Shown here: positions 2,911-53,699 of the stretch, piece after piece
Numbering within the stretch: position 1 is the stretch's first letter
Layout of the letters: each line of letters opens with the position of its first letter
Source of the DNA: Paracoccaceae bacterium
Lineage (GTDB): Bacteria; Pseudomonadota; Alphaproteobacteria; Rhodobacterales; Rhodobacteraceae
Assembly: GCA_947504705.1 (NCBI GenBank)
Contig: CANNIA010000016.1
Location: forward strand, 1 to 64,000
DNA: 64,000 bases
Direction: 5' to 3'
Notes under the pieces: generated by a model
Databases searched by the model: none
What the model was told of the DNA's origin: nothing
What the model saw: only the letters and a program-made list of their open reading frames with translations
Program-made: the position numbers and the translations under genes

Positions 2911-2913
2911 GGT

Positions 2914-36966: not shown

Positions 36967-37202
36967 ATTAGCCGGAAGCCACCAGCATGATCGCAAAGCG
37001 GCTAGAGACAACCTGCCACGACCATGTCATGTCTCCCGCATGAAATAGCAGGTAAGTTTCAGAAATGCGTCCTGGTCGCGGGCCTCCACGACGGCTCATC
37101 TTGGTTCTCCGGAGTTCAGGGTTGCCAGTCGAGGGTAGTCGGCGGCTTTACTTTCGCCGCGGGTCAGGGCAAAGGCAAATTAGAAAACCTAAGGCAACGC
37201 CG

Positions 37203-38144: not shown

Positions 38145-38221
38145 AACGCCGAGACACCGCGTTAAGGCAGCAAGAGTCACGGCTTGTCAGTTCAAATCCG
38201 CTGCCGCCCGAATCGGCCCGG

Positions 38222-39121
38222 TCACTTGCCCAGAACACAGGCCAGAAGAACGATCCCGCCGCCTGACCATTGCAGGGCCGTCATCGTCTCGGCTGGCAAA
38301 AGCCAGGACGCGCTGATCGTGGCGACCAAGGCTTCTGACATCATCAGAACCGCAGCCCGTCCGGGAAACAGGATCCGACAGGCCCAGAAGATGACCAGGA
38401 TGCTGGGCAGCAAAAACAGGGTCGAGGCCAAAAGCGACAGCGGCAGCCCGTCGATCACCTGTGCGACCGAAGGGGGCGGATTGGGCAACAAAAGAAGCGC
38501 AAGCGCCACCCCGGCCAGAACCGCAAACAGAAACTGCAGTGCCGAGGTGGTCAGCACATGCGCCCCCGGCCAGCGTTTCATCCCCGCCGCGCCCAAGGCC
38601 CAAAGCATGCCCGAGGCGACCGCCAGCACATCCCCCAACCCAAGGGCCGACGACGGCAGGTCCGACCCACCCGACAACAACAGGAACAGGCCCAACAAGC
38701 CCGCCGCCACCGTCAGCACCCGGCGTAGGTCAAGGTGTTCTTTCAGCCAGATCACCCCGATAATGGTTGACCAGACCGAGGTCAGATAGAACTCCATCGT
38801 CATGCGGATTACCGGGGCCATCACGATCGAGGTGGAATAGAACCCCAGTCCCACACCCGTCGCCGCCCCGATGAACAGCGCCGGACCGGGATCGGCCAGC
38901 ACCACCCGCCGTTTCCAGATCATCAGCGGGACCAAAACCAGAAGCGGGCAGGCGTTAAACAGCGCCACCCCCCAAGCCCCGTCGATCCCCAACCGTGCGA
39001 GTTCTCGCAGGGGCAGCCAGTAAAGCCCCCAGATCGAGGCCCCCAGAAACAGCGCCAGCGTGGCTAGTCTTTGACTGCGTGGATCAGGCAAGGGGGACGC
39101 CGCTCCAATCCTGCGCTGCAT
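38222..39121 (-). CDS. DMT-superfamily (EamA) transporter
   Basis: About 300 residues with ten membrane segments in two EamA halves; the FLGASIWGLYWLPLRELARLG segment opens the first. The start is uncertain. ATG 39121, GTG 39151 and TTG 39091 are all in frame. TTG 39091 has GGAGCGG upstream and would overlap the previous gene's stop by only a few bases. It is the last gene of the thirteen-gene minus-strand cluster and probably exports a pathway product or analogue. Confidence 0.85.
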   Translation of the reverse strand: MQRRIGAASPLPDPRSQRLATLALFLGASIWGLYWLPLRELARLGIDGAWGVALFNACPLLVLVPLMIWKRRVVLADPGPALFIGAATGVGLGFYSTSIVMAPVIRMTMEFYLTSVWSTIIGVIWLKEHLDLRRVLTVAAGLLGLFLLLSGGSDLPSSALGLGDVLAVASGMLWALGAAGMKRWPGAHVLTTSALQFLFAVLAGVALALLLLPNPPPSVAQVIDGLPLSLLASTLFLLPSILVIFWACRILFPGRAAVLMMSEALVATISASWLLPAETMTALQWSGGGIVLLACVLGK

Positions 39122-39884
39122 AGATGTCAGGTCGGGCCCGACAAGCGTCACGATACCAGTCCATCACATTTCCCATGACCTGCCCGCCCGCCAGATACTG
39201 ATCAACGATCCGCTCAAGCTGCGCCTTGCCGAAGGAAGGTTCATGTCCGCCATGAAACACATCGGCATCCAGCTGCCGCAGCCGTTGTAGGGTCAGCCGA
39301 TAGGTTTCGGGGTTGGAATGATAAAGGCTGTCCAGAAGCCCGCCGTCATAAATCGCGTCGCCGGTAAAGACCGTGCGCGCCTTTTGGTCCCACAGCGCAA
39401 TCGAGCCGGGGGAATGGCCCGGCACATGCAGCACCTGAAACGCGCAATCGCCAAGGTCCACGACATCGCCTTCGTCTAGGTGCCCGGTCAGGGGCGCGGG
39501 CGTGATACGATAAGTTTCGGGCGCAAAATCGGGGTGCTGGTCGGGGCTGACCACTTCGATGCGCGGCCAGTCACCGGAATAGACTACGGCTTCAGCATCG
39601 GGTTGGGCAAAGATATGCGCCTCGGCCGGGTGGGCAAGGCGGCAATCAAACTCGTGCAGGCTGCCCATGTGGTCGAAATGGCAATGCGTGCAGATCGCTT
39701 TGATCGGCCGCTCCGTCTGCGCCATTATCCAGGATTTCAGCGAACTCAGCCCCATTCCCGTATCGATCACCAGATCGCAATCGCGGCCCCGAACGTGCCA
39801 GATATTACAGCGCAGGAAACTGGCGACGCCCGTCTCCTGGATCAGCGAGACCCGATCCGAAAGGCGCAAGGTTGTGAAGGGCAT
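39084..39884 (-). CDS. Metallo-beta-lactamase-fold hydrolase
   Basis: 266 residues from ATG 39884 (AAGGG upstream). The metal motif HxHxDH is in CTHCHFDHMGS (about residue 75), with further His residues in HVPGHSPGSI, the Asp in FTGDAIYDGG, and the late GGHEPSF. This is the glyoxalase II/lactonase-like branch; it probably opens an ester, thioester or lactone. It follows the SDR gene after 10 bases in the large catabolic cluster. Confidence 0.88.
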   Translation of the reverse strand: MPFTTLRLSDRVSLIQETGVASFLRCNIWHVRGRDCDLVIDTGMGLSSLKSWIMAQTERPIKAICTHCHFDHMGSLHEFDCRLAHPAEAHIFAQPDAEAVVYSGDWPRIEVVSPDQHPDFAPETYRITPAPLTGHLDEGDVVDLGDCAFQVLHVPGHSPGSIALWDQKARTVFTGDAIYDGGLLDSLYHSNPETYRLTLQRLRQLDADVFHGGHEPSFGKAQLERIVDQYLAGGQVMGNVMDWYRDACRARPDIYAAQDWSGVPLA

Positions 39885-39894
39885 GGTCTTTCCC

Positions 39895-40662
39895 TTACCA
39901 GTCCGCGCCAGCATTGATCTGGACATCGACATTGGTGAAACCTGGTGCTGCGTCCAAGCAGAAGAAATCCACCAGCGCGGCAATCTCGCCCGGCTGCACG
40001 ATGCGGCCCTGCGGGTTCGACCCCGCAAGTGTGGCCCGCGCCGCCTCACGGGTGATCCCTTGCGCCGCGGCGATCCGGTCGAAGGCCTTGCCCATCATCG
40101 GGGTTTCCACCCAGGTCGGGCTGACCGCGATGCAGGAAATCCCATGCGGCGCGCCCTCCACGGCAGTGGCCTTCGACAGCCCGATCAACCCGGCCTTTGA
40201 CGCGCAATAGGCGGCATACCCACGCTCGCCCCTGGTGCCCGCGGTCGAGGCGATGTTGGCGATGCGCCCCCATCCTGCCGCGATCATGCCGCCAAAGACC
40301 GCGCGGGTCATCCGGAAGCTGCCGGTCAGGTTGATCTCGATCTGATCAAGCCAGGCGTCTTCGTCGTGATCGTGCAGAAACGCCTCCTGATAGATCCCGG
40401 CAGCATTGACCAGAATGGTGGGCTCTCCAAGGCTGTCCCTCACGCCTTGGAAAAACCCGTCCACCGACGCCCGGTCAGCCACGTCCAGCGCCGCGACCCT
40501 CACCCCCGGGCCAAGCAGGCGGGCCATTTCAGCCTGAACCCCCGCCTCACCAGCACGGCGCGCCCCGATGGCGACGCGGTGACCGCGCGCAAGCAGCGCC
40601 TCGGCGCAGGCCAGACCGATGCCTGTGGTGCCGCCGGTGATGATCGCAACGCGAGGCTTCAT
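39895..40662 (-). CDS. Short-chain dehydrogenase/reductase
   Basis: 255 residues from ATG 40662. Classical SDR: cofactor motif TGGTTGIG (residues about 9-16), an Asp at the end of strand 3 (ALDVAD), the NAAG motif, and a Ser...Tyr-x-x-x-Lys active site in YAAYCASKAG. It has Arg residues after the second strand (IGARRAGEAG), suggesting NADP(H). Its start lies close to, and an alternative start at 40680 would overlap, the stop of the iron-type alcohol dehydrogenase. Confidence 0.92.
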   Translation of the reverse strand: MKPRVAIITGGTTGIGLACAEALLARGHRVAIGARRAGEAGVQAEMARLLGPGVRVAALDVADRASVDGFFQGVRDSLGEPTILVNAAGIYQEAFLHDHDEDAWLDQIEINLTGSFRMTRAVFGGMIAAGWGRIANIASTAGTRGERGYAAYCASKAGLIGLSKATAVEGAPHGISCIAVSPTWVETPMMGKAFDRIAAAQGITREAARATLAGSNPQGRIVQPGEIAALVDFFCLDAAPGFTNVDVQINAGADW

Positions 40663-40669
40663 CGGCGGA

Positions 40670-41845
40670 TTACCTTGCACGGGTGATTGCGGTGGTGATC
40701 AGGGCCGTTACCCCGGCCAAGCTCAGCGCGCGCGGGTTGGTGCCTGCGGCGGTGTCGGTCATCGCCTTGGCCGCGATGCTGTCGGTGTGGTCAGGGGTGA
40801 CGCCAATCTCAGCCAAAGAGCGCGGTATACCGCAGCGATCCAAAAGCGCGCAAACCGCCTGATAGAAGGTCTGAAAATCACTCCCGGCCAGCCCCATCGC
40901 CTGACACATCGGCCCCACCTGCGCCGCAATCTCCTTTTCGTTGAACCGCAAGACCAGAGGCAATAGAACCGCATTGGTCAGACCGTGGTGCGTATCAAAC
41001 TCGGCGCCAACCATGTGGCTGACGGCGTGAACCAGCCCCAGCCCTTTCAGGAACGCTACCCCCGCAAGGCAGGACCCAACCAGCATCGCCCCCCGCGCCG
41101 GGATGTCGGCGGGATGGTCGATGACTTGCGGCAGGGCGCGATAAATCATCCCTAGGGCCTGCAAGGCGATGCCGTCGCACATCGGATGGAACGAGGGCAC
41201 GCAATAAGCCTCAATCGCATGCACCAGCGCATCGCAGCCGGTCCAGGCGGTCAGGTTGCGGGGCAGGCCGACAGTCAACTCGGGGTCAAGCAGCGCGGCA
41301 AAGGGCTTTTGCAGGGGATGCCAGACACAGCCTTTGATCATCCGCTTGGTGTCGGTGACCATCGCGGTGCTTTCCGTCTCGGCCCCGGTGCCCGAGGTGG
41401 TCGGCACGCAAAGCAGCGGCACGAAATCGGCCTTGGTCAGTTCCTGCGGCACCGGGCAGTTGAAATCGAAATCCCACAGATCACGGTTGGAGTTCAGCAC
41501 AAGACTGATCGCCTTGCCCGCATCCATCCCCGAGCCGCCACCAAGCGCGATAACGCTGTCATGCCCCCCCGCTAGAAAGACCTTTTTGCCCGCAGCTACC
41601 TCGACATCGGTCGGGTTGGGCGAGACATCGGTAAAGCTGCCATGACCCAGGCCCGCGCTTTCCAGATATCCCCGCAGCCTGCCGACGAACGGCAACTGCC
41701 CGGTGGCACGGTCGGTCACGATCAAGGGCTTCTTGCAGCCCCTCGCCGCACAGATCGCGCCAATTTCGGCCAACCGACCGGGGCCATACTTGACCGGCAC
41801 CGGAAAATCCCAGTCGACGGCGTTGAGAAACGGATCTGCGGTCAT
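40670..41845 (-). CDS. Iron-containing (group III) alcohol dehydrogenase
   Basis: 391 residues. The NAD-binding GGGSGMDAGKAI segment, the metal region (TGCDALVHAIEAYCVPSFHPMCDG) and the later GLVHAVSHMVGAEFDTHHG segment with further His ligands are all intact. It oxidises a short alcohol to an aldehyde or the reverse. The start overlaps the upstream desaturase stop by 4 bases. Confidence 0.94.
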   Translation of the reverse strand: MTADPFLNAVDWDFPVPVKYGPGRLAEIGAICAARGCKKPLIVTDRATGQLPFVGRLRGYLESAGLGHGSFTDVSPNPTDVEVAAGKKVFLAGGHDSVIALGGGSGMDAGKAISLVLNSNRDLWDFDFNCPVPQELTKADFVPLLCVPTTSGTGAETESTAMVTDTKRMIKGCVWHPLQKPFAALLDPELTVGLPRNLTAWTGCDALVHAIEAYCVPSFHPMCDGIALQALGMIYRALPQVIDHPADIPARGAMLVGSCLAGVAFLKGLGLVHAVSHMVGAEFDTHHGLTNAVLLPLVLRFNEKEIAAQVGPMCQAMGLAGSDFQTFYQAVCALLDRCGIPRSLAEIGVTPDHTDSIAAKAMTDTAAGTNPRALSLAGVTALITTAITRAR

Positions 41846-42729
41846 TGGTTCATCCAGCCTTTGTGAGTTTTGGGCCAGAATCCTTCGATCCGGACATCGT
41901 TCTGCTCAAGCAGAGGGCGAATGTCGCGGAAGGTCTGGTCATAGCGGTAAAACGGAACGCCCGGCATCATGTGATGGATCAGGTGATGGTTCTGACCCAG
42001 CATCAGCAGGTTCGCTCCCGGGAACAGGGACTCGCGCGTGTCGCGGTAACGCCCGGTCTCGTGGTGGTCGTGGTGCGGCGTCCAGGTGAAGAAGGTCAGC
42101 ATCACCGTCTGACCCAGCCACCAGGGGATGAACCACAGCACCAACACTTCCCAGCCATAGCCCGCCAGGATCAGCCCCAACACCGCCGCCGTCTGCAGTG
42201 CGAAGGTGGCATAGGTGATCTTCACCTGCCCCGCTGGCACGCCATATCGCTGGCAGTCGCGGTAAAGATGCAGGGGGCTGAAGTACTTAAGCAAGGTCAG
42301 CGGCAGGCGCCAGAACAGCCAGCCCAGAAAGCTGCCGCGCGCATAAATGTCGGGGTCCTCATCCGTGTTTGCCTTGGTGTGGTGGACCATGTGCTGCTTG
42401 AGATGCGGAAAATAGAACAGCCACAAGGGAATGCAGGCCGCCGTTCCCATCCACAGATCCAGCCAGCGCAGGGTCTTCCGCTTCAGGCTGATGTTGCCGT
42501 GAATGGCCTCGTGCACGATGGTGTAAAGCGCATAGATAAAGCCGGTGTTGATGACGGCGCCCAGCGTATAGCTGATCCGCCCCGTCATCGCGGCCCAAAG
42601 CGACAGGCCGAAGATCGCGAAAAGCCCAAGGAAAAGCGCCACCGTCGGCCAGGCGAAATCCGGCGTGTTCCGGCGTCCGGCGGCCATTTCTTCTCCGATA
42701 GTTCTTGGCTTTTCCCGCTGACTGTCCAT
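41842..42729 (-). CDS. Membrane fatty-acid-desaturase/hydroxylase family protein
   Basis: 295 residues with three or four membrane segments and the histidine boxes of integral-membrane di-iron enzymes: HEAIH (73-77), HMVHH (113-117), HHDHH (219-223) and HHLIHH (248-253). It is closer in length and box spacing to the beta-carotene hydroxylase/small desaturase branch than to long acyl-lipid desaturases. Its place inside a soluble catabolic operon, overlapping the alcohol dehydrogenase gene, suggests that it hydroxylates or desaturates the pathway substrate, probably one with an alkyl chain. This is inference. Confidence 0.88.
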   Translation of the reverse strand: MDSQREKPRTIGEEMAAGRRNTPDFAWPTVALFLGLFAIFGLSLWAAMTGRISYTLGAVINTGFIYALYTIVHEAIHGNISLKRKTLRWLDLWMGTAACIPLWLFYFPHLKQHMVHHTKANTDEDPDIYARGSFLGWLFWRLPLTLLKYFSPLHLYRDCQRYGVPAGQVKITYATFALQTAAVLGLILAGYGWEVLVLWFIPWWLGQTVMLTFFTWTPHHDHHETGRYRDTRESLFPGANLLMLGQNHHLIHHMMPGVPFYRYDQTFRDIRPLLEQNDVRIEGFWPKTHKGWMNQ

Positions 42730-42745
42730 CGCGCGCCCCTCCGAC

Positions 42746-43759
42746 CTAACCTGGCATCGTCAGAATAATCTTGCCGCTGCCGCCCGTGCTTTCCAGCTTG
42801 CGATGCGCCTCGGCGGCGTCCTGCAGGGCAAAGCGGTCCGAGATCCGCACAAACACCCTGCCCTCGGCCAGCCAGTCCATCGCAGTCCGCAAGATCGCCG
42901 CCTGTCGCCGCAGATGCGCGGTCAGACCCTTCCACATCGGCGTCAGCATCATCACGTTATGGATGGTCAGATTGGCGTTATAGGCGGTGCCATCCTCCAG
43001 ATCGCCGGGCGTGCCCATCAGGGTGACCATATGGCCATAGGGTTGCAAGACCCGAAGACTTTGCAGGAACCCCTCGCCGCCGATGTTGTCGAGCACGGCC
43101 TTGACGCCCTGCCCCGCGCTCCAACCCATAACGGCGGCAACGAAATCCTGATCCTTGTAGGGGATCGTCTTCTCCGCCCCGGCCGCCGCCGAAAGCGCCG
43201 CCTTTTCCGCCGAGCTGACCGTGGTCGCCACCCGTGCCCCCAGCGCCTTGGCGATTTGCGTGGTCATCTGGCCCGTGCCGCCCGCACCGCCATGGATCAG
43301 GACCAGATCGCCCTGGCCGACGCCCGCGCGTTCGACCATCGCCTCCCAGCCGGTGATGAAGACCAGCGCGATGGCTGCGGCATCTTCCAGCGCCACGCTG
43401 TCCGGCACCTTTACCAGACTGTCCACCGGCACCACAGCATGTTCGGCATAGGTCCCCGCAGCACCGCCGACGCCGCCATGGCAAAAGCACACCCGGTCGC
43501 CTATGGCAAACCCACTGACCGCCCGCCCCACCGCCTGCACGATTCCAGCCCCGTCATGGCCCAGAACGCAGCCCTCGGCCTCGCCCACATAGGGTCCAAG
43601 GCTGCGAAAGAAGGTATCCGCCGGGTTCACCCCCGCCGCGACCAGCCGCACCAGCACGCCGGAGCCCTCGGGGTCCCAAGGCAAAGTGACCGGAGCATAG
43701 GCCAACACCTCGGGCCCACCGGCTCCGCGCATCACCATGGCGTTGGTCTTGAAACCCAT
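42746..43759 (-). CDS. Zinc-type alcohol dehydrogenase-like / NADPH:quinone oxidoreductase family protein
   Basis: 337 residues from ATG 43759 (GAGGG 7 bases upstream); an earlier ATG at 43780 overlaps the amidase stop by 4 bases and is also possible. MDR superfamily, quinone oxidoreductase/zeta-crystallin type: GVNPADTFFRSLG, the GHDGAGIVQAVG segment and the cofactor motif GGAGGTG. No structural zinc cysteines are present. It reduces a quinone or an alpha,beta-unsaturated carbonyl with NADPH, which would suit a step after desaturation. Confidence 0.92.
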   Translation of the reverse strand: MGFKTNAMVMRGAGGPEVLAYAPVTLPWDPEGSGVLVRLVAAGVNPADTFFRSLGPYVGEAEGCVLGHDGAGIVQAVGRAVSGFAIGDRVCFCHGGVGGAAGTYAEHAVVPVDSLVKVPDSVALEDAAAIALVFITGWEAMVERAGVGQGDLVLIHGGAGGTGQMTTQIAKALGARVATTVSSAEKAALSAAAGAEKTIPYKDQDFVAAVMGWSAGQGVKAVLDNIGGEGFLQSLRVLQPYGHMVTLMGTPGDLEDGTAYNANLTIHNVMMLTPMWKGLTAHLRRQAAILRTAMDWLAEGRVFVRISDRFALQDAAEAHRKLESTGGSGKIILTMPG

Positions 43760-43776
43760 CGACAATCCCTCTGCCA

Positions 43777-45216
43777 TCATGCGCCAAACCCCGGCAGACC
43801 GGCGCCTGGCAGAAACAGCCCCGGCGCCGCAGCTTCATACTGCAGGGCCGCGCCAATGACCGCCGCATCGCTGAAGGTCGGCCCGATGATCTGGATGCCG
43901 GTCGGCACACCATGCCGGTCCCGCCCCGAGGGCACGGAAACCACCGGGCAATTCGACAGCATGTTGAAAGGATGCGTCAGGACCCAGCCATATTCGGCAT
44001 CGACCACATGGCCGTCGACAGTGAAATCCTTGGCCAGCGGATCATGGTCAGCCCGGACAGCGCCCACCGACAGGGTCGGGCAAATCAGCACATCGAACCG
44101 CTCAAACAGCGCGCCGATGGTCTGGTACATCGCGTGCTGCACCTCCCACGACCGCGCAACCTCGTCGGGGGTAACCCGCGCGGCCATATCGGCAGCGGCT
44201 TTGGCATAGTCGGTCAAAAGGTCCCGATGTTCGGCCGCCAACCACAGCGGCTGGCGACCGAAATGCATCGCGCAGTACCAGCCCATCGAGGCCCGGTCGA
44301 CCTCGGCTCCCCAGCCGATCTGCACTTCCTCCACCTGGCAACCGGTCGCGGCAAACACCTCCAAGGCGCGGGCGGTGTTGGCGCGCACGTCCGCGTCCAC
44401 CGGGATATAGCCCAGATCCATCGACCACCCGACCCGCAGCGGACGGGGAACGGCGGTCAAGGGCAGCGCGACCCGTTCCCGCAAGCTGGAATGATCGCGC
44501 GGATGCGGACCCGAGATCAGGTTCTGCAACAACGCGGTGTCACCAACCGTCCGGGTCAGCACGCCGCAATGGTTATAGGGATCGAAATTTGCAGGCGGCC
44601 CGTCCGGGTTGCGGCCATGCGGTGGCTTGTAGCCGACCACCCCACAGGCGCTTGCCGGTATGCGGATCGAACCGCCGATGTCAGTGCCGGTCGCCACCGG
44701 AGTCATCCCGCCCGCCAGCGCCGCCGCCGATCCCCCAGAGGACCCACCCGGCCCGAAATCAGGGTTGTGGGGGTTGCGCGTCACCCCCCAAAGCCGCGAG
44801 TTGCAGGTGCCCGACAGGCAGAACTCAGGCGTCGTGGTGCGGGCATGCAGGATCGCGCCCGCCGCCTGCATCCGCTCGATCGTCGGGTCCGAGACGGCAT
44901 CGACATGGTCCTGAAACACCAGCGAGCCTTGGGTCGTCCGCTTGCCCGCGATGCGCTGCGCATCCTTGACCGCTATGGGCAGCCCTTCCAGAAGACGGGG
45001 TGAGCCTGAGCGGCTGCTATAGACCGCCTCGGCAGCCCGTGCCTCGGCCCGCGCCGCATCGAAATAGCAATCGGCATAGGCGTTGAGGATCGGGTTCACC
45101 GCCTCGGTTCGGGCCAAAAGCCTATCAAGGTACTCTACCGGCGAAAGCTGGCGCTGGCGAAAGAGGCTCAGCACTTCGGTTGCGGGCAGATAGCACAGGG
45201 TTTCGTCTGCGGTCAT
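43777..45216 (-). CDS. Amidase signature family hydrolase
   Basis: 479 residues. The Ser-cisSer-Lys triad is Lys84 (IAVKDA), Ser159 (GPGGSSGGS) and Ser183 (DIGGSIRIP); spacings of 75 and 24 equal those of the family. It hydrolyses an amide to a carboxylate and ammonia or an amine. The gene has no gatB/gatC partners and does not look like GatA. It sits between the HDAC-like and quinone-oxidoreductase-like genes, so it likely cuts an amide of the transported compound. Confidence 0.94.
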
Positions 45217-45246
45217 GGCGTCCTACCCCAAATTCCCGATGCTGGT

Positions 45247-46281
45247 TCAGCCTTCCAGATAGCTTGTCAGCACATTGGCCACATTGCGCCCCAAGGCGTC
45301 GATGGCATAGCCGCCTTCCATCACGAAATGGGTTGGCAGGTCCAGCCCAGCGATGACTTGCCCAAGGCGCAGATAATCGGGGGTCTTCAGGCAGAACCCA
45401 CCGACCGGATCGCCGTCAAACGTGTCCACGCCCAAGGAGACGATCAGCATGTCCGGCGCATAAGACCTGATCCGCGCCGCAGCCGTCTCCATCGCTTCCA
45501 TATAGGTGCCAATCCGCGTGCCGGGAGGCATCGGCAGGTTCAGGTTCAAGCCTTCACCCTTGCCGCTGCCGGTCTCATCGGCAAAGCCCAGAAGGAACGG
45601 GTATTCCTCTTCCGGCCGACCATGCAGCGAGATGAACAGCACGTCACCCCGGTCATAAAAGATACGTTGGGTGCCGTTGCCGTGGTGGTAATCGATGTCC
45701 AGAATGGCCACCCGCGCGGCCCCCCGGTCGCGATAGAACTGCGCGGCGATGGCGGCATTGTTCAGATAGCAATACCCCCCCGCCAGATCGCCCGAGGCAT
45801 GGTGCCCCGGCGGCCGGCACAGCGAGAACACCGACGAGGCCCCCGCCTGCATCAGCCCCGCCCCGGTCAGCGCCACATCAACCGCCGACCGGATCGCCTG
45901 CCAGCTGCCTGCAACGAGGGGTGCGAAGATGTCGAAGGTATAGGCCGACAGCATGGCGTTGACCGAATTCATGTTCGGCTTTTGCGCCATGCCGCGCATC
46001 CCGAACGTGCGGGCAAAGGCGGCACTTCCGGGGCCCTTTTCTTTCAGCCACATCGGATAGGCGGTTTCCAGAAAGCGCAGGAAATCCGGGTCGTGAATCC
46101 GCGCCGCTGCCTCCAGCCCATGCGGAGTGGGGGCCTGCACATCGGCAAGGCCTGCCTCCGCCAGCGCCTGCAGGATCACCTCCATCCGCTCAGGGCATTC
46201 GGCCATCGGCACGAAACTCTCGCCCCGCATCTCGGGCGCGCCCGCATGGCCCTTGTGGGCGTCGGAATAGATGATCTTCAT
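45247..46281 (-). CDS. HDAC-superfamily acetylpolyamine/acylamide deacetylase
   Basis: 344 residues, an AphA-like member of the histone deacetylase superfamily. RPPGHHA carries His160-His161, and LDIDYHHGNGTQ carries the zinc ligands Asp197 and His199; GVDTFDGDP supplies the third. The N-terminal DAHKGHAGAPEM loop is typical of bacterial acetylpolyamine amidohydrolases. It removes an acyl group from an amine. Its start overlaps the permease stop by 4 bases, so it is translated with a betaine-type transporter, which hints that the imported compound carries an N-acyl group. Confidence 0.92.
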   Translation of the reverse strand: MKIIYSDAHKGHAGAPEMRGESFVPMAECPERMEVILQALAEAGLADVQAPTPHGLEAAARIHDPDFLRFLETAYPMWLKEKGPGSAAFARTFGMRGMAQKPNMNSVNAMLSAYTFDIFAPLVAGSWQAIRSAVDVALTGAGLMQAGASSVFSLCRPPGHHASGDLAGGYCYLNNAAIAAQFYRDRGAARVAILDIDYHHGNGTQRIFYDRGDVLFISLHGRPEEEYPFLLGFADETGSGKGEGLNLNLPMPPGTRIGTYMEAMETAAARIRSYAPDMLIVSLGVDTFDGDPVGGFCLKTPDYLRLGQVIAGLDLPTHFVMEGGYAIDALGRNVANVLTSYLEG

Positions 46282-48365
46282 GGATAAGCCCCTTCCAGCC
46301 GTGCCTCGCTCCGCTTTTGCCAGGCGCGGCAGAACTGATCGGACAACAGCGCGATCACCGCCATCGCGATCCCGGCAAGGAACCCGATCCCGAAATTGCC
46401 CTTCGACAGCCCGATATAGATGATCTGCCCCAGATCATCCGTCCCCACCAGCGCCGAGATGACCAGCATCGAAATCCCGAACATGATCGCCTGATTAAGG
46501 CCCAGCATGATGTTCGGCATCGCCAGCGGAATCTTCACCCGCCACAACAGCTGCGACCGCGTGCAGCCAAGACTGGTCGAGGCCTCGATCACCTCTTTGG
46601 GCACATTGCGGATGCCGTATTCGGTATAGCGGATCGGGGCGACGACGGCATAAGAGATAATCGCCAGCAGCGCCGAAAACTCGCCGATCTTGAAGATCAT
46701 GATGATCGGGATCAGCAAGACAAAGGGCGGCATGGTCTGCAACGTGTCGTTGATCGGGCGCAAAATGCGCGAGAAGCGGTCGCTTTCGGCGGCAAGAACG
46801 CCCAGACCACTGCCGATGATGAACGAGGCCACGACCGCCAGCCCGCACAGCTGCACCGACAGCACCGCCTTGTCATAGCTGCCCGAGATCAGGATGAACC
46901 CCATCGCCGCTGCTGACCAAAGCGCCAGGCGCATCCCGCCGGACCGATAGCCGAAATAGATCAACAGCGCGGCCAGACCAGGCCAGGTCATGTTGGTCAG
47001 CCCGAAAAACAGGATCAGACCAAAGCTCAAGGTCGCAATCGCCAAGCCGCCCCTGCCGCGTGTCCGGGCATAGAAGGCCCCGCCAACCACAAGGACCACA
47101 TAAAACGCGGCGTGCCACAGTGTCGGGGTAAAGCCCCAGGTGAAGGGGCTGACCACCTTGTAAAACCCGATCTTCAACGGGAGCACAAAGGCGAAGATCA
47201 CGAAATTCTTCGTCGCATCCAAGACCGGTTTGGCCGCGATCACGAAAGCTTCGATCCCGCGGTTCAGCGGGCCCGAGGGATCGACCGTCCATCCCTCCGG
47301 CCAGACCTGCAGCGCAGGAACCACCAGCGACAGCCCATAGGCCGCAATCATCGCCGCCAGCAGCGTCACCCCAAAGCGGTGCCGGGCAAGAAAGCCCTTG
47401 TCGTGGTCCATGTCCTGCTCTCGGGTCGCCAGACCATAGGTGATGCGGTCCAGCACCATCGCCATCAGGGCAATGACGATCCCCGCCACCAGACTTTCGC
47501 CAAACTCGGCCTTGCGCAGGGTGGACAGCACCTTCCAGCCAATATCTTCCGACCCGCCGATGATCGAAGCGATGATGATCATGCTTAGCGCCGCCATCGT
47601 GGTCTGGTTCACCCCCAGCAGGATCTGCCGCAGACCCGCCGCACAGCGCACGCGAAAGAACAGCTGCCACGGCGTCGCCCCCGACATCAGACCGGATTCG
47701 ATGATCTCTGACGGCACCTCGCGCAGGCCGACGATGGTGTTCTTGACCATCGGCGGAAAGGCAAAGATCACCCCGGCGATCAGCCCGACAACCGGGCCAA
47801 AACCGAACAGCATCAGGATCGGCAACAGATAGGCAAAGGCCGGAACCGTTTGCGTCACGTCCATCATCGGGGTCAGGAACCGTTCAACCCTTGGCCGGAA
47901 GAACCCCGCCACCCCAAGCCCGAACCCAAGCGCAATCGCCAGTGGCACCGACACCGCGACCAGCGCCAGCGAGTTCATCGTGTCCGGCCAAAGCCCCATC
48001 GCCAGCACGTAAAGCAGCGACACCCCGGTAAAGATCGCCAAGGGCCTCTTGCCCGCCTGATAGGCAATCAGAACCGCAGCCACAGCGCTGACCGACCACG
48101 GCAGCCACGCCAGCAGATCCGACACCCATTGCAGCGGAAAGCCCATCACCCAAGACAGAAAGCGGAAGAACGGCTTGGTATGGTCAACCAGCCATTGCAT
48201 CAGCACATTCAGCCAATCGCCAAGCGGAAGCTGCCAGTCGGCGGGATAGGCGTGCAGCACCGGGAACCGGACCTGCAACAGCGCCAGACCCAAGGCTAGA
48301 CCCAGAAGCGCAAGCCAAACCACGGCGCCCGAAAGGCTGGACCCAGCGCCCCTGCCCTCAGCCAT
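46278..48365 (-). CDS. Double-length glycine betaine/choline-type ABC permease
   Basis: 695 residues made of two ProW-like permease units in one chain (EAA-type loops near AGLRQILLGVNQTTMAALSM and SQLLWRVKIPLAMPNIMLGL), joined by extra membrane segments around the middle. ProW-type permeases are usually about 300 residues, so this is a natural fusion that removes the need for a homodimer. The ATG at 48365 was chosen because it overlaps the ATPase stop by 8 bases. Confidence 0.93.
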   Translation of the reverse strand: MAEGRGAGSSLSGAVVWLALLGLALGLALLQVRFPVLHAYPADWQLPLGDWLNVLMQWLVDHTKPFFRFLSWVMGFPLQWVSDLLAWLPWSVSAVAAVLIAYQAGKRPLAIFTGVSLLYVLAMGLWPDTMNSLALVAVSVPLAIALGFGLGVAGFFRPRVERFLTPMMDVTQTVPAFAYLLPILMLFGFGPVVGLIAGVIFAFPPMVKNTIVGLREVPSEIIESGLMSGATPWQLFFRVRCAAGLRQILLGVNQTTMAALSMIIIASIIGGSEDIGWKVLSTLRKAEFGESLVAGIVIALMAMVLDRITYGLATREQDMDHDKGFLARHRFGVTLLAAMIAAYGLSLVVPALQVWPEGWTVDPSGPLNRGIEAFVIAAKPVLDATKNFVIFAFVLPLKIGFYKVVSPFTWGFTPTLWHAAFYVVLVVGGAFYARTRGRGGLAIATLSFGLILFFGLTNMTWPGLAALLIYFGYRSGGMRLALWSAAAMGFILISGSYDKAVLSVQLCGLAVVASFIIGSGLGVLAAESDRFSRILRPINDTLQTMPPFVLLIPIIMIFKIGEFSALLAIISYAVVAPIRYTEYGIRNVPKEVIEASTSLGCTRSQLLWRVKIPLAMPNIMLGLNQAIMFGISMLVISALVGTDDLGQIIYIGLSKGNFGIGFLAGIAMAVIALLSDQFCRAWQKRSEARLEGAYP

Positions 48366-49419
48366 GCGCCACCTCACGGGCCTGTGCGCCCTCGGATGCC
48401 GCAAGGGCCGCCACCAGCGACGCCGCCGTCAGCGTGCCGACATAAGTCCCGCCCTCCACCACATCGACACCCTTGGGATTGGCGGCCAAAAGCGGCATCA
48501 GCCCTTCGACGCGCGCCTCGGGGTCAACCTGCGGCAACCCCTCGGGGCGGTTGGCAAGGGCTTCAGCACATTGCCCCGCGCGCAGGATCTTGATCCTTGG
48601 CACCTCTCCAGTGAACTGCGCGACATAGTCGTCGGCCGGATGCAGGATCAATTCCTCGGGCGTGCCGATCTGCACCACGCGGCCATCGCGCATGATCGCC
48701 ATCCGGTCGGCAATGCGCAAAGCCTCAAGGAAATCATGGGTGATAAAGACGATAGACTTCTTCAGCACCCGCTGGATGCGCAGGAATTCGTCCTGCATCT
48801 GGCGGCGGATCAAGGGGTCCAAAGCACTGAACGGTTCATCCAAAAGCCAAAGCTCCGGCTCCACTGCCAAGGAGCGTGCAATGCCCACCCGTTGCTGCTG
48901 GCCACCCGACAACTGGCGCGGATAGGCATTCTCGCGCCCGCCAAGGCCGACCAGATCAATCACCCGGGCCGCACGTTCGCGTTGATCCGCTGGCGAAAGC
49001 CCCTGCAACCGCAGGGGAAAGGCGATGTTCTCGATCACGTTCAAATGCGGCAGAAGGCCAAAGTTCTGAAACACCATGCCCATCTTGTGACGGCGGATGT
49101 CGATCAGCTCACGGTTGGACTTGGCCAGAAGGTCCTCGCCGTCCAGAAGCACCTGACCGTGGTCAGCATCGATCAGCCGCGACAAGCAGCGCACGACGGT
49201 CGATTTTCCCGACCCTGACAGCCCCATGATCACGAAAGTTTCGCCGACATGTACGTCAAAGCCGACATTGATCGCCGCCGGAATGTGCTTTTCGCTGCGC
49301 ATCCGTGCAGCAAGCTGGGCCGCATCCGAAACAGGCTCAGATGACTTAAAATACTGGCCCGGATCGGGGCCATAAACCTTCCAAAGGTTGCGACAAGAAA
49401 GCTTGACGTCGCCAGACAT
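48358..49419 (-). CDS. Glycine betaine/choline-type ABC transporter ATPase
   Basis: 353 residues from ATG 49419 (a GTG lies two codons upstream). Walker A GLSGSGKST, Q-loop MVFQNFGLLPH, signature QLSGGQQQRVGIARSLA, Walker B LWLLDEPFSALDPLIR and switch His in FITHDF. The N-terminal stretch KSSEPVSDAAQLAARMRSEK is a ProV feature. The C-terminal 90 residues are shorter than and unlike a double CBS domain, so osmotic gating of the OpuA kind is not evident. It drives the double permease. Confidence 0.94.
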   Translation of the reverse strand: MSGDVKLSCRNLWKVYGPDPGQYFKSSEPVSDAAQLAARMRSEKHIPAAINVGFDVHVGETFVIMGLSGSGKSTVVRCLSRLIDADHGQVLLDGEDLLAKSNRELIDIRRHKMGMVFQNFGLLPHLNVIENIAFPLRLQGLSPADQRERAARVIDLVGLGGRENAYPRQLSGGQQQRVGIARSLAVEPELWLLDEPFSALDPLIRRQMQDEFLRIQRVLKKSIVFITHDFLEALRIADRMAIMRDGRVVQIGTPEELILHPADDYVAQFTGEVPRIKILRAGQCAEALANRPEGLPQVDPEARVEGLMPLLAANPKGVDVVEGGTYVGTLTAASLVAALAASEGAQAREVAHG

Positions 49420-49454
49420 GGTCACCTGCCTTGAAGGAAAATCAGCGGGGATGC

Positions 49455-49479
49455 GCGCCCGGCACTGGATGCCGGGCGC
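49455..49479 (-). terminator. Hairpin between binding-protein and ATPase genes
   Basis: GCGCCCGGCA (49455-49464) and TGCCGGGCGC (49470-49479) form a perfect 10-bp stem with a 5-base loop in the 102-base gap. There is no T-run in the right place. Such stems after binding-protein genes usually act as partial terminators or 3' mRNA stabilisers, keeping the binding protein more abundant than the membrane parts. Confidence 0.6.
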
Positions 49480-49521
49480 AATGGTCCGGGTCGCTTGGCG
49501 CGGCCCGAAAAGGAAGCGACC

Positions 49522-50463
49522 TTATTGCGTCCAGGTGGACCAAATCGCCTCATTGTTGGCGACCCATTCCGCCGCCACTTCCTCTGCCGGGCGACCCTTC
49601 TGATCCACTTCAAGGATCATGGCGTTCTGGTCGGTATTGGTCAGGGTGAACTTGGCCATCATCGCCGAGGCAGCCGGCCATTTGGTCGCAAACTCGCGGC
49701 CCTGAATCTTTTGCACATGGGCTTGGGCAAAGCCGCAGGCCGTGTCCTTGGCTTGGGTTTCCTCGACGCATTCCCCGTCGATCGGGTTCCATTCCACCCA
49801 GTTCAGATCCTGCTCGGCAAAGATCCAGTGCGGCTGCCAGAACATCATCAGGATCGGTTCCTTGGCGGCAATCGCGCCTTTCATCTCGGCCAGCATCGCA
49901 CCTTCGCTGCCGCCCGGCACCACATTGAACGGCAGGCCGATCGCGGTGACCACGTCGATGTCGCGGGTGCCCCAGTCGGCGGGATAGCCAACCAGACGCC
50001 CGTTCGGGAAGGTCTCGGCGGTGCCAAAGGCCTGGGCACAATCGTAAAGCGCCTGATAGCTGGGCAGGCCGGGGCAAAGCTCTTCCATATAGGGCGGGTA
50101 GACCCAGCCTTCGCGCGGCTCCAGCCCCAACTCGCCCAACACCACGATATCGCCCGAAGCGATGCCATTGGTATAGGCTTCGGTCACCGAATTGTCCCAA
50201 ACCTCTGGGTTCATATCCAGCTCGCCCTGCCCGATCGCCGCCAGTTGCGGCAGGGCGCCGGCAATCACCAGCTCGACGTTATAGCCCATCTTCTTCAGGA
50301 TTTCGGCAGCGATGTTCGCCGACAGAACCTGCCCCGTCCATTCATTGACCGCGATCTTGATCGGATCGGGCGACTCGGGCACATCCGCCAAAGTGACCGA
50401 AGGTGTGGCCAGTGTCAGTGCAGTAATTGCGACGGCCAACAGGCCAAGGCGCATCCTTTTCAT
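49522..50463 (-). CDS. Periplasmic quaternary-amine-type substrate-binding protein (OpuAC/ProX-like)
   Basis: 313 residues. ATG 50463 is preferred because GGGGAG lies 9 bases upstream, while at ATG 50472 that site would touch the codon. Signal peptide cleaved after TLA. The aromatic-rich segments NEWTGQVLSANIAAEIL, NPEVWDNSV, GWVYPPY, YPADWGTRDID and FWQPHWIF are those that build the aromatic cage for trimethylammonium groups in ProX/ChoX proteins. The ligand is probably a quaternary amine such as choline, betaine, carnitine or an N-acylated relative. Confidence 0.9.
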   Translation of the reverse strand: MKRMRLGLLAVAITALTLATPSVTLADVPESPDPIKIAVNEWTGQVLSANIAAEILKKMGYNVELVIAGALPQLAAIGQGELDMNPEVWDNSVTEAYTNGIASGDIVVLGELGLEPREGWVYPPYMEELCPGLPSYQALYDCAQAFGTAETFPNGRLVGYPADWGTRDIDVVTAIGLPFNVVPGGSEGAMLAEMKGAIAAKEPILMMFWQPHWIFAEQDLNWVEWNPIDGECVEETQAKDTACGFAQAHVQKIQGREFATKWPAASAMMAKFTLTNTDQNAMILEVDQKGRPAEEVAAEWVANNEAIWSTWTQ

Positions 50464-50506
50464 GGTCTTCATCTCCCCTTTTGGTTCAGTCTCTTGTTAT
50501 TGTTGT

Positions 50507-52237
50507 CTAGGTAAAAACAGCGACAAGCTCGGCCCGGTCGCCCGCATAGTCCCTGGAAATCGCGCCAGAACGCTGGCGCTCCTTCCAGTCTTCCGCCGCC
50601 ATTAACGGTGCCTCCTCGGCCTCTGGCAAGAGTTTTTGCAGAATGATGTCGGCAGCCCGTTCGGCCAGCATGATCGTCGGCCCATTCAGATCGCCCGCCG
50701 TCGCCTGCGGCATGACCCCGGCATCAACCACCCGCAAATTCTGCACCCCTATCACCCGGCATTCAGGATCTACGACCGCCATCGGATCGGTGCCCATCCG
50801 GCAGGTCCCGCACGGATGGTAGGCGCTTTCCACCTTGCGGCGGATAAACTCATCCAGCGCCGCATCCGACTGCGCCTCGGCACCCGGTGCCAGTTCCGTC
50901 CCGGTATAGGCCGCCATCGCCGGTTGGCTGAAAATCTCGCGGCTCAGCCGGATGCAGGCGCGCATCTCCTGCCAGTCATCCTCATGCGTCATATAGTTGA
51001 ACTGCACGCGCGGCAGGCTATGGGGGTCCTTGTCACGCAGCCGCACCCAGCCCCGGCTTTTCGACCGCTTGGTGCCGACATGCACCTGAAAGCCATGCCC
51101 CTTGGCCAGCGACTTGCCGTCATAGGAAATAGCCAAGGGCAGGAAATGGAACTGGATATCCGGATAAACCACCCCCGCCCGGCTGCGGATATGGCCGCCG
51201 GTCTCGAAATGATTGGTCGCCCCAAGCCCGCGTCCTGTCGTCAGCCACTTCAGCCCGATCAAGGCCTTGCCCGCCATAGACATCCACGGGTACAGCGACA
51301 CCGGTTTCAGACATTCGTACTGAACATACAGCTCCAGATGGTCCATCAGGTTCTCACCCACGCCCGCGCTGGCATGAACCACCGGAATGCCATGCCGGGC
51401 CAACTCGGCAGCCGGGCCTATCCCTGAGCGTTTCAGGATCACCGGCGACATGATCGACCCCGCACTCAGGATCACCTCACGCGCGGCACGGGCCACATGG
51501 GTCTGGCCATGGCGCAGATATTCAACGCCAACAGCCACCTTGCCCTCAAACAGAATGCGCGTGACCGTGGCCTTCGTCACCAACCGCAGCTTCCCATTCT
51601 TCAGCGCCGGACGCAGATAGGCGACCGAGGCACTGCACCGCCGCCCCCCACCCACCGTCATCTCCATCGGGCCAAAGCCTTCGTGCTGGACCGAATTCAT
51701 GTTGTCGCTGCGCGCATAGCCCGCCTGCACGGCGGCATCGACAAAGGCGTGATAAAGCGGGTTCGCCTCAGGCCCGCGCGTGACCTTCAAGGGGCCAGAA
51801 GTGCCGCGCAGCCTACCCCCGCCTGCGACATTCTCCATCTTCTGGAAATACGGCAGCACATTGGCCCAATGCCAGCCGGTCGCCCCTTTGGCCGACCAAA
51901 GCTCGTAATCCATCGGATTGCCGCGCACATAGCACATGCCGTTGATCGAGGATGACCCGCCCATCCCCTTGCCACGCGGCAAGTTGATCTCGCGCCCGTT
52001 CAGACCCGGTTCGGGCTCGGTCTTCATGCCCCAGTTGAAACGCCGGGTGTTCATCGGCATGGCCAGCGCCGCAGGCATCGCCACGATCATCGACCGGTCA
52101 CTGCCCCCGGCCTCCAGCACCAACACGCTGAACCCCGTGCCTTCCGTCAGCCGCCGCGCCAGAACGCTGCCTGCCGACCCCGCGCCGATGATCACATAGT
52201 CATAGGTTTCGCCCGTCCCATCACTCAATGATGACAT
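50507..52237 (-). CDS. GMC-family FAD-dependent (choline dehydrogenase-like) oxidoreductase
   Basis: 576 residues. The N-terminal FAD motif YVIIGAGSAGSVLARRL, the GMC signature LPRGKGMGGSSSINGMCYVR and the C-terminal His-containing catalytic segment VESAYHPCGTCRMG are complete. BetA and alcohol dehydrogenase AlkJ are close relatives. It oxidises a primary alcohol to an aldehyde. It overlaps the upstream cupin gene by 17 bases and lies next to a betaine/choline-type transporter. No betB gene is in the window, so it may serve another alcohol than choline. Confidence 0.93.
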   Translation of the reverse strand: MSSLSDGTGETYDYVIIGAGSAGSVLARRLTEGTGFSVLVLEAGGSDRSMIVAMPAALAMPMNTRRFNWGMKTEPEPGLNGREINLPRGKGMGGSSSINGMCYVRGNPMDYELWSAKGATGWHWANVLPYFQKMENVAGGGRLRGTSGPLKVTRGPEANPLYHAFVDAAVQAGYARSDNMNSVQHEGFGPMEMTVGGGRRCSASVAYLRPALKNGKLRLVTKATVTRILFEGKVAVGVEYLRHGQTHVARAAREVILSAGSIMSPVILKRSGIGPAAELARHGIPVVHASAGVGENLMDHLELYVQYECLKPVSLYPWMSMAGKALIGLKWLTTGRGLGATNHFETGGHIRSRAGVVYPDIQFHFLPLAISYDGKSLAKGHGFQVHVGTKRSKSRGWVRLRDKDPHSLPRVQFNYMTHEDDWQEMRACIRLSREIFSQPAMAAYTGTELAPGAEAQSDAALDEFIRRKVESAYHPCGTCRMGTDPMAVVDPECRVIGVQNLRVVDAGVMPQATAGDLNGPTIMLAERAADIILQKLLPEAEEAPLMAAEDWKERQRSGAISRDYAGDRAELVAVFT

Positions 52238-52580
52238 AGAACTTCACCATGGTCTGGGTCTGGCGCCAATAACCGGTAAACCCCTTGGGCACGAAAAACG
52301 CATCCCCCGCGCGATAGGTTTCGCTGAACCCGTCACTTTCCAGCGTCACTTCGCCTTCCAGCACATACATGAACTCATCGGCGGCATAGCTGTCGTAAAA
52401 CTCGGTATAGGGCTGCGAGCGCCAGATCCCGGTGCGAAACTTCGGGTTCGCGCGGTCAAAATACACATGGTCCCGCCCCAAAGGCAAACCTTCGATGAAT
52501 GTCGCCGTTTCCTGCGGCACATCGGGGCTTTGCATCCAGCCCTCAGGGCCAGTGGGCGAAAATTTGATCGGCAGGGACAA
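52221..52580 (-). CDS. Small cupin-domain protein
   Basis: 119 residues, a single beta-barrel. It has DEFMYVLEGEVTLESDG and AGDAFFVPKGFTGYWRQ, the two cupin motifs, though the usual first-motif metal histidines are replaced (no HxH). It is therefore probably a binding or stabilising protein rather than a metal enzyme, like the (S)-ureidoglycine-type or ethanolamine-utilisation-like cupins. It is the first gene of the thirteen-gene cluster, divergent from a LysR gene with a 132-base shared promoter region. Confidence 0.85.
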   Translation of the reverse strand: MSLPIKFSPTGPEGWMQSPDVPQETATFIEGLPLGRDHVYFDRANPKFRTGIWRSQPYTEFYDSYAADEFMYVLEGEVTLESDGFSETYRAGDAFFVPKGFTGYWRQTQTMVKFYVIIE

Positions 52581-52712
52581 GGCTTTCTCCTAGGTCACGT
52601 CAGGCGGGCACGTCTGGCCGCGCGGTTCAGCCTTGATAGGCAAGACCCCCACGATTGCAGAATCAATAATCTTCCACGAGAGTAACTTCAGGTTACGAAG
52701 CCAAGGACCAGA

Positions 52713-53699
52713 ATGCGCAACCGATTGCCCCTGACCGCCTTTCGCGCCTTTGATGCAGCGGCGCGCAATGGATCACTGACGGCAGCGGCAGCGGAACTTG
52801 GCGTCACCCGGCCTGCGGTCAGCAAGCAGATCAAGCAGCTGGAACTGATGCTGGGCGCCCCCCTGATGGACCGCTTTGGCAATACGGTCCGGCTGACCCC
52901 GGCGGGGCAAGAGCTTAGCCAATCCCTGGCCCAGGCCTTCGACCAGATCGCCGCCACCGCCAGCCGCATCGCCCAAGGCACGCCCGCGCCGAACGTCATC
53001 CGCATTCTGGTCGACCGCGATTTCGCCTCGTCCTTCCTTGCCGGACATATCGGCCAGTTTCTAGTCCGCAATCCCGGCGTTTCGGTCGAAGTCGTCGCCG
53101 AACGCAATGGCCGCCTTCGCCTGGATGAGGATTTCAACTTCCGCATCTTCTATGGCCACCACGCCGCCAAATCGCACCCCGGCCTGCGCGAAGAGGTGCT
53201 TTGCCATTGGCATGACCTGACCGTCTGCACCCCGGATTATGCCGCCGCCCATGTCAGCGCGGCGGGCGATCTGGTGGACGCACAACTGCTGATCGACGGC
53301 AATTATGACGTGTGGGAGGATTGGTTCGTCCAGACCGGCCAGCGCCATCCCGGCACGATCCGCAATGTCACGCATTTCAACGAAACCTCGCTATGCCTTT
53401 CGACCGCGATGTCAGGCGGTGGCATCACCATCGGCGATTCCATTCTGGCCTTTCCGGCGATCCGGTCCGGCAGGCTGGTGCTGCCCTTCCGCCACGGGCT
53501 GGAAAGCGCGCAATGCTATTCGATCTTCCTGCGCAGCGGGGCCCGGCCAACCCAGGCCGAGACCGGTTTTCGCAACTGGCTGGGTCAGGTCGTCCACGAT
53601 CACCAGGCCGAGGTCAACAAGTACCTTGCCGACATCGGAATCAACCTGATCAGCAATATCGGTAGAAAACGCGCAAGGTCCGTAGGGCAGATCAGCTAG
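52713..53699 (+). CDS. LysR-family (GcvA-like) regulator of the divergent catabolic cluster
   Basis: 328 residues. N-terminal helix-turn-helix (PLTAFRAFDAAARNGSLTAA and AVSKQIKQLELMLG) and a GcvA-type effector domain; a 25-residue C-terminal extension follows the last predicted helix. It faces away from the cupin gene that starts the minus-strand cluster, the classic layout of a LysR activator with its target operon. The effector is presumably the imported compound or an intermediate. The 233 bases after it hold no gene. Confidence 0.92.
   Translation: MRNRLPLTAFRAFDAAARNGSLTAAAAELGVTRPAVSKQIKQLELMLGAPLMDRFGNTVRLTPAGQELSQSLAQAFDQIAATASRIAQGTPAPNVIRILVDRDFASSFLAGHIGQFLVRNPGVSVEVVAERNGRLRLDEDFNFRIFYGHHAAKSHPGLREEVLCHWHDLTVCTPDYAAAHVSAAGDLVDAQLLIDGNYDVWEDWFVQTGQRHPGTIRNVTHFNETSLCLSTAMSGGGITIGDSILAFPAIRSGRLVLPFRHGLESAQCYSIFLRSGARPTQAETGFRNWLGQVVHDHQAEVNKYLADIGINLISNIGRKRARSVGQIS

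Follow-up and report, generated by a model that had tools for sequence, protein, structure and literature searches.

A thirteen-gene operon of a Paracoccaceae bacterium may serve uptake and oxidative catabolism of a choline-like quaternary amine around a conserved desaturase-family core

Which compound would a bacterium take up and degrade with thirteen tightly packed genes that combine a betaine/choline-type importer with two amide hydrolases, a membrane di-iron enzyme and several unrelated dehydrogenases? The question is raised by positions 38222 to 52580 of the window, by which we mean the whole 64,000-nucleotide stretch of contig CANNIA010000016.1 from a Paracoccaceae bacterium (assembly GCA_947504705.1), where a first-pass annotation had described a compact catabolic operon. 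Thirteen consecutive open reading frames (ORFs) do run there on the minus strand, from 52580 down to 38222 and with the boundaries first given for them; all 13 proteins pass the Pfam gathering scores of families that fit the names initially proposed and 11 of the 12 junctions are 34 bases or shorter - the sole exception being 96 bases behind the binding-protein gene - which upholds the layout as described. We lean, with modest confidence, towards the view that these genes, as a single LysR-controlled unit, serve uptake and oxidative catabolism of a small, choline-like quaternary-ammonium compound whose side chain would be attacked by an enzyme of the desaturase family (here termed DES). Algae, plants and bacteria exchange much of their nitrogen and carbon as quaternary amines, and to our knowledge few catabolic entries into these compounds have been described. 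If the view is true, a core with its own membrane oxygenase, found in named cultured strains, would imply either an unrecognised compound or a new attack on a known one.

Relatives of the operon were collected through DES, a membrane di-iron enzyme (41842..42729; all operon coordinates here and below are on the minus strand) with a FA_desaturase score of 117 bits. A DES scan of genome contigs gave 12 loci (L003-L014) from Rhodobacterales, Rhizobium, Mesorhizobium, Bradyrhizobiaceae, Aestuariivirga and one unassigned alphaproteobacterium, and genome searches added two further independent loci (L016 from genome G282, L048 from G1067) to make 14; L015, being the L004 contig once more, was not counted. 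Ten of these (L004, L008-L014, L016 and L048; long loci below) extend over at least 14 kb and the other four lie on shorter contigs. The relatives are few and come partly from assembled metagenomes, genes were called from BLAST matches and a simple codon-composition caller, and the presence counts exclude matches of less than 30% query coverage or under identity limits, which removes a partial permease of L003 (89% identity), a partial MBL gene of L009 and two short-chain dehydrogenase genes of L012 (29-30%).

At these limits, every one of the 10 long loci encodes a binding protein close to DES (OpuAC type in four, Pot-like in six), nine have an alcohol dehydrogenase of Fe, Zn or GMC type and nine a homologue of the L014 TetR gene. 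The quinone-oxidoreductase/PIG3-like medium-chain reductase (QOR; 42746..43780; 211 bits to TIGR02824, under the cut-off of 297) is present in eight long loci and in 12/14 overall, the MBL-fold hydrolase (39084..39884; Lactamase_B 84 bits, HxHxDH motif) in seven, with an eighth, partial copy where L009 ends, and the DMT (EamA) exporter (38222..39151; 62 bits over two stretches) in seven. Occurrence is patchier for the short-chain dehydrogenase (SDR; 4/10 at 44% identity or more), the Fe-type alcohol dehydrogenase (Fe-ADH; 4/10 and 6/14), the HDAC-family amidohydrolase (3/10 and 5/14), the GMC oxidoreductase (2/10 and also 2/14) and the window-type amidase (1/10 and 3/14, those three being closely related), and the cupin is found in none of the 10 long or 14 total loci. 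What is conserved is a core with optional parts: the cupin, GMC and amidase counts exclude a fixed thirteen-gene unit, and co-conservation of all thirteen genes, which the first-pass annotation had named as a check, is not supported. L003, the nearest relative, retains the order permease (partial)-HDAC-QOR-DES at 81-89% identity. The presence table also holds 13 comparison loci, of which L017, L018, L019 and L050 alone were chosen independently of the non-DES cluster genes, and all four lack the twelve remaining window genes at the table limits; L039, L040, L042-L044 and L051-L053 were chosen via gene-search matches and L049 continues L013.

The clusters are rare and patchily distributed in alphaproteobacteria. 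DES was found in 3/295 genomes of its own family including the source genome (1e-40), in 1/398 genomes across the phylum, namely the source genome itself (1e-80), in 2/297 genomes from the family of G692 (1e-80) and in 16/385 genomes of the class (1e-40), where the source genome and G628 alone exceed 300 bits. G191, the sole congener in the family sample, gave no match to DES (1e-40) or HDAC (1e-60), and the 40 kb of it that were compared hold strong matches to just two window genes, within 29462-32716; plasmids gave no match to DES at 1e-50. DES homologues from the order of G628 (6/16 genomes) were considered as cluster members and rejected: 13 kb around the G628 gene (L017; 44% identity) matched in DES only, its scanned neighbours being AMP-binding, ketopantoate-reductase-like and serine-hydrolase proteins, and the other loci of that order are short (about 4 kb), a single neighbour having been scanned in two cases. 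All were left out of the counts, and judging from the L017 neighbourhood DES-family proteins probably act in further pathways as well. Cultured carriers include Aestuariivirga litoralis KCTC 52945 (L010) and Mesorhizobium qingshengii; two genomes labelled as the latter (L008 and L012) have clusters with different alcohol dehydrogenases (Zn versus GMC) and DES proteins that are only about 57% identical.

Linkage to DES extends to co-variation, for which identity matrices of the cluster proteins were correlated with that of DES and judged by permutation counts that ignore shared ancestry. QOR follows DES (r 0.95, n 9, reached by 1/2000 permutations; 0.92 and 12/5040 when thinned, that is with near-duplicate loci removed), and MBL (r 0.90, n 8, 4/2000; thinned 0.81, 1/120), DMT (r 0.84, n 7, 5/2000; thinned 0.84, 7/720) and TetR (r 0.79, n 9, 1/2000; thinned 0.70, 11/720) behave alike. 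The Pot-like binding protein reaches r 0.99 (n 6, 22/2000), and SDR, Fe-ADH and the Zn-type enzyme give 0.98, 0.86 and 0.90 over 4-5 loci only (185, 56 and 104 of 2000 permutations). We conclude that the operon represents a novel version of the known quaternary-amine catabolic gene clusters, with a DES-QOR-MBL-DMT-alcohol-dehydrogenase core, exchangeable importers and optional amide hydrolases.

As for the substrate class, the OpuAC-type binding protein (49522..50472) has its best match in the Protein Data Bank (PDB) with 4xz6 (150 bits), which is the trimethylamine N-oxide (TMAO)-binding protein TmoX. The available portions of its description assign the TMAO pocket to W55, W102, W177, W222, Glu131, Phe106 and Phe220 (PMC8918994). 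Aligned with these, the window protein keeps W55/W102/E131/W177/W222 as W45/W92/E121/W167/W212 and replaces the two phenylalanines (F106 by V96, F220 by M210), and the binding proteins of L009, L011 and L016 have the same seven pocket residues as that of the window. We infer that its ligand is a quaternary ammonium compound, possibly bulkier than TMAO, and the conserved cage supports the betaine/choline-type uptake initially proposed. The remaining importer genes encode a ProV-type ATPase (48358..49425; TIGR01186 311 bits, under the cut-off of 327) and a double permease of the ProW/ChoW type (46278..48404; TIGR03416 377 bits, above the cut-off of 363), upstream of which lie the GMC gene of the choline-dehydrogenase class (50507..52237; TIGR01810 753 bits, above the cut-off of 732 and one of three such proteins in the genome) and that of a small EutQ-like cupin (52221..52580; Cupin_3 56 bits).

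DES itself carries the three histidine boxes HEAIH, HMVHH and HLIHH, whose histidines are invariant in the DES alignment, and its predicted structure is fair (mean pLDDT 82). It matches four NCBIfam families far under all cut-offs (beta-carotene hydroxylase CrtR 73.8 versus 475, arginine hydroxylase GntB 36.3 versus 380 bits). Assignment by fold was tried and abandoned, with only two of 180 PDB matches at E <0.001 and both of them chains of chloroplast motor complexes. That a di-iron enzyme should point to an alkyl chain, as the first-pass annotation had it, is not required, the weak matches including GntB (36 bits), whose substrate is a small polar amino acid. DES may produce an alcohol or prepare for one, as is suggested by the alcohol dehydrogenases beside it, of which two or three unrelated types replace each other; in the window it is the Fe-ADH (40670..41845; Fe-ADH 129 bits, ADH_Fe_C 169). 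Next to the latter lies the SDR, which is 3-hydroxybutyrate-dehydrogenase-like (39895..40680; adh_short 164 bits, TIGR01963 186 bits under the cut-off of 307).

The relatives add chemistry of their own. Inside the L009, L012 and L013 clusters sits a Rieske oxygenase closest to the carnitine monooxygenase CntA (307 bits to 6y8j), a DMGDH-like enzyme (457 bits to 5l46) and BADH/PuuC-like aldehyde dehydrogenases, under their cut-offs, occur in relatives, and an aldehyde dehydrogenase lies inside the cluster in L004 and L048. In L004, genes for the aldehyde dehydrogenase, the DMGDH-like enzyme, QOR, DES, Fe-ADH and amidase follow each other on one strand. All eight TetR proteins scanned (L008-L012, L014, L016 and L048; that of L013, the ninth, was outside the scan) exceed the PRK00767 BetI cut-off (136-178 versus 118 bits) and none reaches that of TIGR03384, so they are BetI-related, perhaps as a sub-family that senses another amine. 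With these repressors, the Rieske oxygenase, the DMGDH-like enzyme and the aldehyde dehydrogenases, the catabolic character first ascribed to the operon gains support. The source genome holds the L004-type pair of aldehyde dehydrogenase and DMGDH-like genes on contig C23 (81% identical and unlinked to the operon) and ten full-length DMGDH-like genes altogether; next to the intact pair lies another DMGDH-like gene, broken by stop codons (L039, C23 at about 20440-21937). No gene genome-wide exceeds the TIGR01804 cut-off of 668.6 for betaine aldehyde dehydrogenase (best 474), and the best Rieske protein of the genome scores 139 bits to that of L009.

A route can be proposed whose order (import, hydroxylation, alcohol, aldehyde oxidation, secondary steps) follows from the interchange of alcohol dehydrogenases beside DES. 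The TmoX-like binding protein and the ProV/double-permease ABC importer would bring in the cation, DES would hydroxylate a C-H bond of its side chain, and Fe-ADH and/or the choline-dehydrogenase-like GMC enzyme would turn the new or an existing primary alcohol into an aldehyde, to be oxidised by an aldehyde dehydrogenase that would be encoded elsewhere in the source genome, but inside the cluster in L004 and L048. SDR, QOR and MBL might then act on the remaining fragment by secondary-alcohol oxidation, enone or quinone reduction and hydrolysis of an ester, lactone or thioester, and, where present, the HDAC-family deacetylase and the amidase might cleave off an acyl or an amide group. DMGDH-type folate chemistry, through the C23 gene pair, may then finish the methylamine end, and the DMT protein may export an intermediate or by-product. 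More tentatively, the operon may stand for an undescribed quaternary-amine route in which a desaturase-family di-iron monooxygenase attacks the side chain first, in place of entry via choline dehydrogenase, Rieske monooxygenase or trimethylamine lyase, while importer (OpuA/Tmo or Pot-like) and alcohol dehydrogenase (Fe, Zn or GMC) are exchanged between lineages around DES-QOR-MBL.

Several observations weigh against catabolism of a choline-like compound by this route. In six of the 10 long relatives the importer is polyamine-like (Pot) - a label based on solute-binding domains of a general kind, weak similarity to polyamine-binding structures and a permease that scores under the PotB cut-off - and L004 has replaced the OpuA-type importer of the window by one of another OpuAC subfamily, whose binding protein keeps the four tryptophans and lacks the glutamate. 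Because importer type is exchanged in this way, a common substrate across the relatives is not secure. L010 shows no alcohol dehydrogenase of Fe, Zn or GMC type, and in the stretches read QOR is absent from L011 and L016 and MBL from L008 and L048. Aldehyde dehydrogenase, N-demethylase and an electron-transfer partner of DES are all missing from the window operon. The OpuA-type binding protein, ATPase and permease correlate poorly with DES (r 0.26, 0.26 and 0.27, n 5), which is due to the other-subfamily importer of L004; leaving L004 out, the values rise to 0.86, 0.97 and 0.81, with n 4 and 4, 2 and 3 of 24 permutations too few to decide. Co-variation with DES could in part reflect species descent, and DES could be a desaturase instead of a hydroxylase.

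Of the alternatives, the one that survives best, albeit unlikely, is that two systems share one transcript, a choline-like module (cupin-GMC-binding protein-ATPase-permease) and a separate DES-centred one running from HDAC to DMT. The genome holds two more linked sets of importer and GMC genes: contig C3 encodes an OpuAC protein, an ATPase, a permease, a BetI above both curated cut-offs and a GMC protein with 808 bits to betA, and the importer and GMC module recurs in that contig C69 (bases 1-6000, L043) encodes a second set of TmoX-like solute-binding protein, ATPase, double permease and GMC enzyme, 36-60% identical to that of the window. The absence of the cupin from all 14 relatives, the GMC gene in just two and the exchange of importer type in 7/10 long loci fit such a split. 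It is countered by the binding protein near DES in every long locus, by importers of the same subtype that co-vary with DES (r 0.81-0.97, n 4) and by L003, where the permease stays joined to HDAC, QOR and DES at 81-89%.

A further option, which we regard as improbable, is catabolism of an acetylated polyamine or a guanidino compound with a betaine-type importer merely borrowed. Its case starts from the HDAC-family protein (45247..46281), which is of the acetylpolyamine amidohydrolase (APAH) branch (352 bits to 9gkz, 326 to 3q9b) and whose fold-typical metal and catalytic residues are invariant in the alignment of cluster HDACs, and extends to the Pot-like importers of six related loci, a PuuR-like regulator in L004 and a PuuC-like aldehyde dehydrogenase in L048. 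To this adds a Pseudomonas aeruginosa plasmid region (L030, 4448-18435) with clustered genes annotated as aphA, solute-binding protein, DMT, MBL, ketoarginine decarboxylase and agmatinase, where MBL is 46% and AphA 50% identical to the window proteins; MBL and DMT may, judging from L030, be general companions of amine catabolism. However, E117 of APAH, which in the accessible part of its description forms a salt bridge to the polyamine (PMC5454378), corresponds to Phe119 in the window HDAC and, across the six aligned cluster HDACs including this one, to F, F, C, C, S and S, while P. aeruginosa AphA keeps the glutamate. The missing residue is a hint only, because 9gkz, also named APAH, likewise lacks it. 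Moreover, the window importer keeps the quaternary-amine cage, and relatives hold BetI-related, Rieske and DMGDH-like genes.

That the cluster is biosynthetic or lipid-modifying, with DES as a true fatty-acid desaturase, we regard as very improbable: DES carries the Pfam FA_desaturase domain and the fold search gives no enzyme of known substrate, but importer, BetI-related repressors, aldehyde dehydrogenase, DMGDH-like and Rieske partners suit catabolism. An N-acyl substrate had also been suggested initially from the presence of two amide-cleaving enzymes. The second of them, an amidase-signature amidase (43777..45216; Pfam Amidase 287 bits), is an optional member as is HDAC, and since L003 has no amidase between HDAC and QOR this suggestion is weak; L004 has a 71% identical amidase behind Fe-ADH, and in the genome of L014 HDAC lies on a separate contig (60% identity). 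Least probable of all is a surfactant-like amidoamine betaine or other alkyl-chain quaternary amine, as hinted in the first-pass annotation, where the co-occurrence in one operon of a quaternary-amine importer with a membrane di-iron enzyme and a pair of amide hydrolases is set against amidase in 3/14 and HDAC in 5/14 relatives, a TmoX-type pocket that would suit small solutes, no beta-oxidation genes among the thirteen and nothing found in the open-licence literature searched.

In the reading we prefer, uptake and oxidation of a choline-like compound, the thirteen genes would form one predicted transcription unit. In 5' to 3' order, and with the starts judged most plausible, the junctions measure -17 (cupin-GMC), 34 (GMC-binding protein), 96 (binding protein-ATPase), -8 (ATPase-permease), -4 (permease-HDAC), 30 (HDAC-amidase), -4 (amidase-QOR), 16 (QOR-DES), -4 (DES-FeADH), 7 (FeADH-SDR), 10 (SDR-MBL) and -8 to -38 bases (MBL-DMT), the three values of -4 being 4-base overlaps. 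The cupin gene starts with TTG and that of MBL probably with ATG at 39884, not at the long-ORF start 40049; start codons are uncertain for permease, SDR (probably ATG 40662) and DMT. Directly behind the binding-protein gene, the 96-base gap (49426..49521) folds into an RNA hairpin (-42 kcal/mol, z -2.64) that has no T-tract. Hairpins of this kind are usual behind binding-protein genes and we read it as a processing element rather than an operon end. A sigma-70 consensus scan of 37000-53000, with a consensus we take to be a weak guide in alphaproteobacteria, found no promoter-like site on the minus strand and one on the plus strand, and the 3' end of the operon folds into nothing that clearly resembles a terminator (folding z -0.52 and 0.24).

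The probable regulator is a GcvA-like LysR-type protein (52713..53699, plus strand; Pfam HTH_1 and LysR_substrate) encoded divergently across a 132-base intergenic region common to its gene and the first gene of the operon. This region contains the perfect palindrome GTAAC-N5-GTTAC (52682..52696), a candidate LysR box that we take to resemble the T-N11-A type and the sole match to this pattern in the 64-kb window; 100 shuffles gave no match, a count that overstates the weight of the palindrome because the pattern was chosen after the region had been read. Both regulators that flank the operon are of the LysR type, the other being encoded at 37065-38144. That gene and a gene for a HalD-like 2OG-Fe(II) oxygenase (36079-37011) lie near one for an M24-family protein related to the dimethylsulfoniopropionate (DMSP) lyase DddP (34710-36011, minus strand; 374 bits versus a cut-off of 600). 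Elsewhere in the window a glycine riboswitch aptamer was found (24813-24912, minus strand; 58 bits). Plasmid neighbourhoods of homologues of the binding protein, HDAC, MBL and SDR fixed no substrate. In one of them (L029, Sinorhizobium meliloti p_2, 9152-15826) an SDR 76% identical to that of L013 lies beside genes annotated as hydantoinase/oxoprolinase, acetone-carboxylase-gamma and choline-type binding protein, no more than a hint that SDR makes a ketone, and a carboxylation route for an amine-bearing ketone is possible.

How does the operon compare with described systems? CrtR and GntB resemble DES as FA_desaturase-family proteins with three histidine boxes, whereas its scores to them remain far under their cut-offs. 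AlkB is presumably a further membrane di-iron hydroxylase comparable to DES. CntA and other Rieske oxygenases have homologues inside three related clusters (L009, L012 and L013) and none in the window operon. Loci with AphA are alike in that one annotated region (L030) packs AphA into 7 kb together with MBL, DMT and a solute-binding protein, while the window HDAC lacks the polyamine-binding glutamate, the importer differs and the operon has no guanidino enzymes; a polyamine operon was considered and set aside, with the catalytic residues of HDAC in place and the Glu117 salt bridge missing, though 9gkz is also without it. For the set of genes or the candidate substrates, the open-licence literature searched revealed no described pathway, in agreement with the first-pass annotation. 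Likeness to TmoXWV lies in the binding protein, best matched by TmoX with the four-tryptophan box and glutamate kept, and the difference, within the pocket residues given in the available text, in valine and methionine for two pocket phenylalanines (PMC8918994); a TMAO cluster was rejected, as Phe106 and Phe220 are not kept and no operon protein matches TMAO demethylase. The DMSP-binding protein DmpX, from what is accessible of its description, served as a further comparison (PMC10030565).

The closest parallel is to the choline catabolic genes betIABC with choXWV, whose pathway and regulators were compared as far as the available sections of two papers present them (PMC4744692, PMC12442346). 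Here as there, and within that limit, a quaternary-amine ABC importer adjoins a GMC enzyme of the choline-dehydrogenase class and the relatives have BetI-related repressors; in contrast, the window operon adds DES, QOR, Fe-ADH, SDR, MBL, HDAC, amidase and DMT. A bet operon proper was rejected: the BetA score is reached (753 versus 732 bits), yet the operon has neither betB nor betC and the locus no BetI. The window operon is not the sole choline system of this bacterium, and because the C3 set fits the standard choline genes and C69 holds another, it is probably not the standard one.

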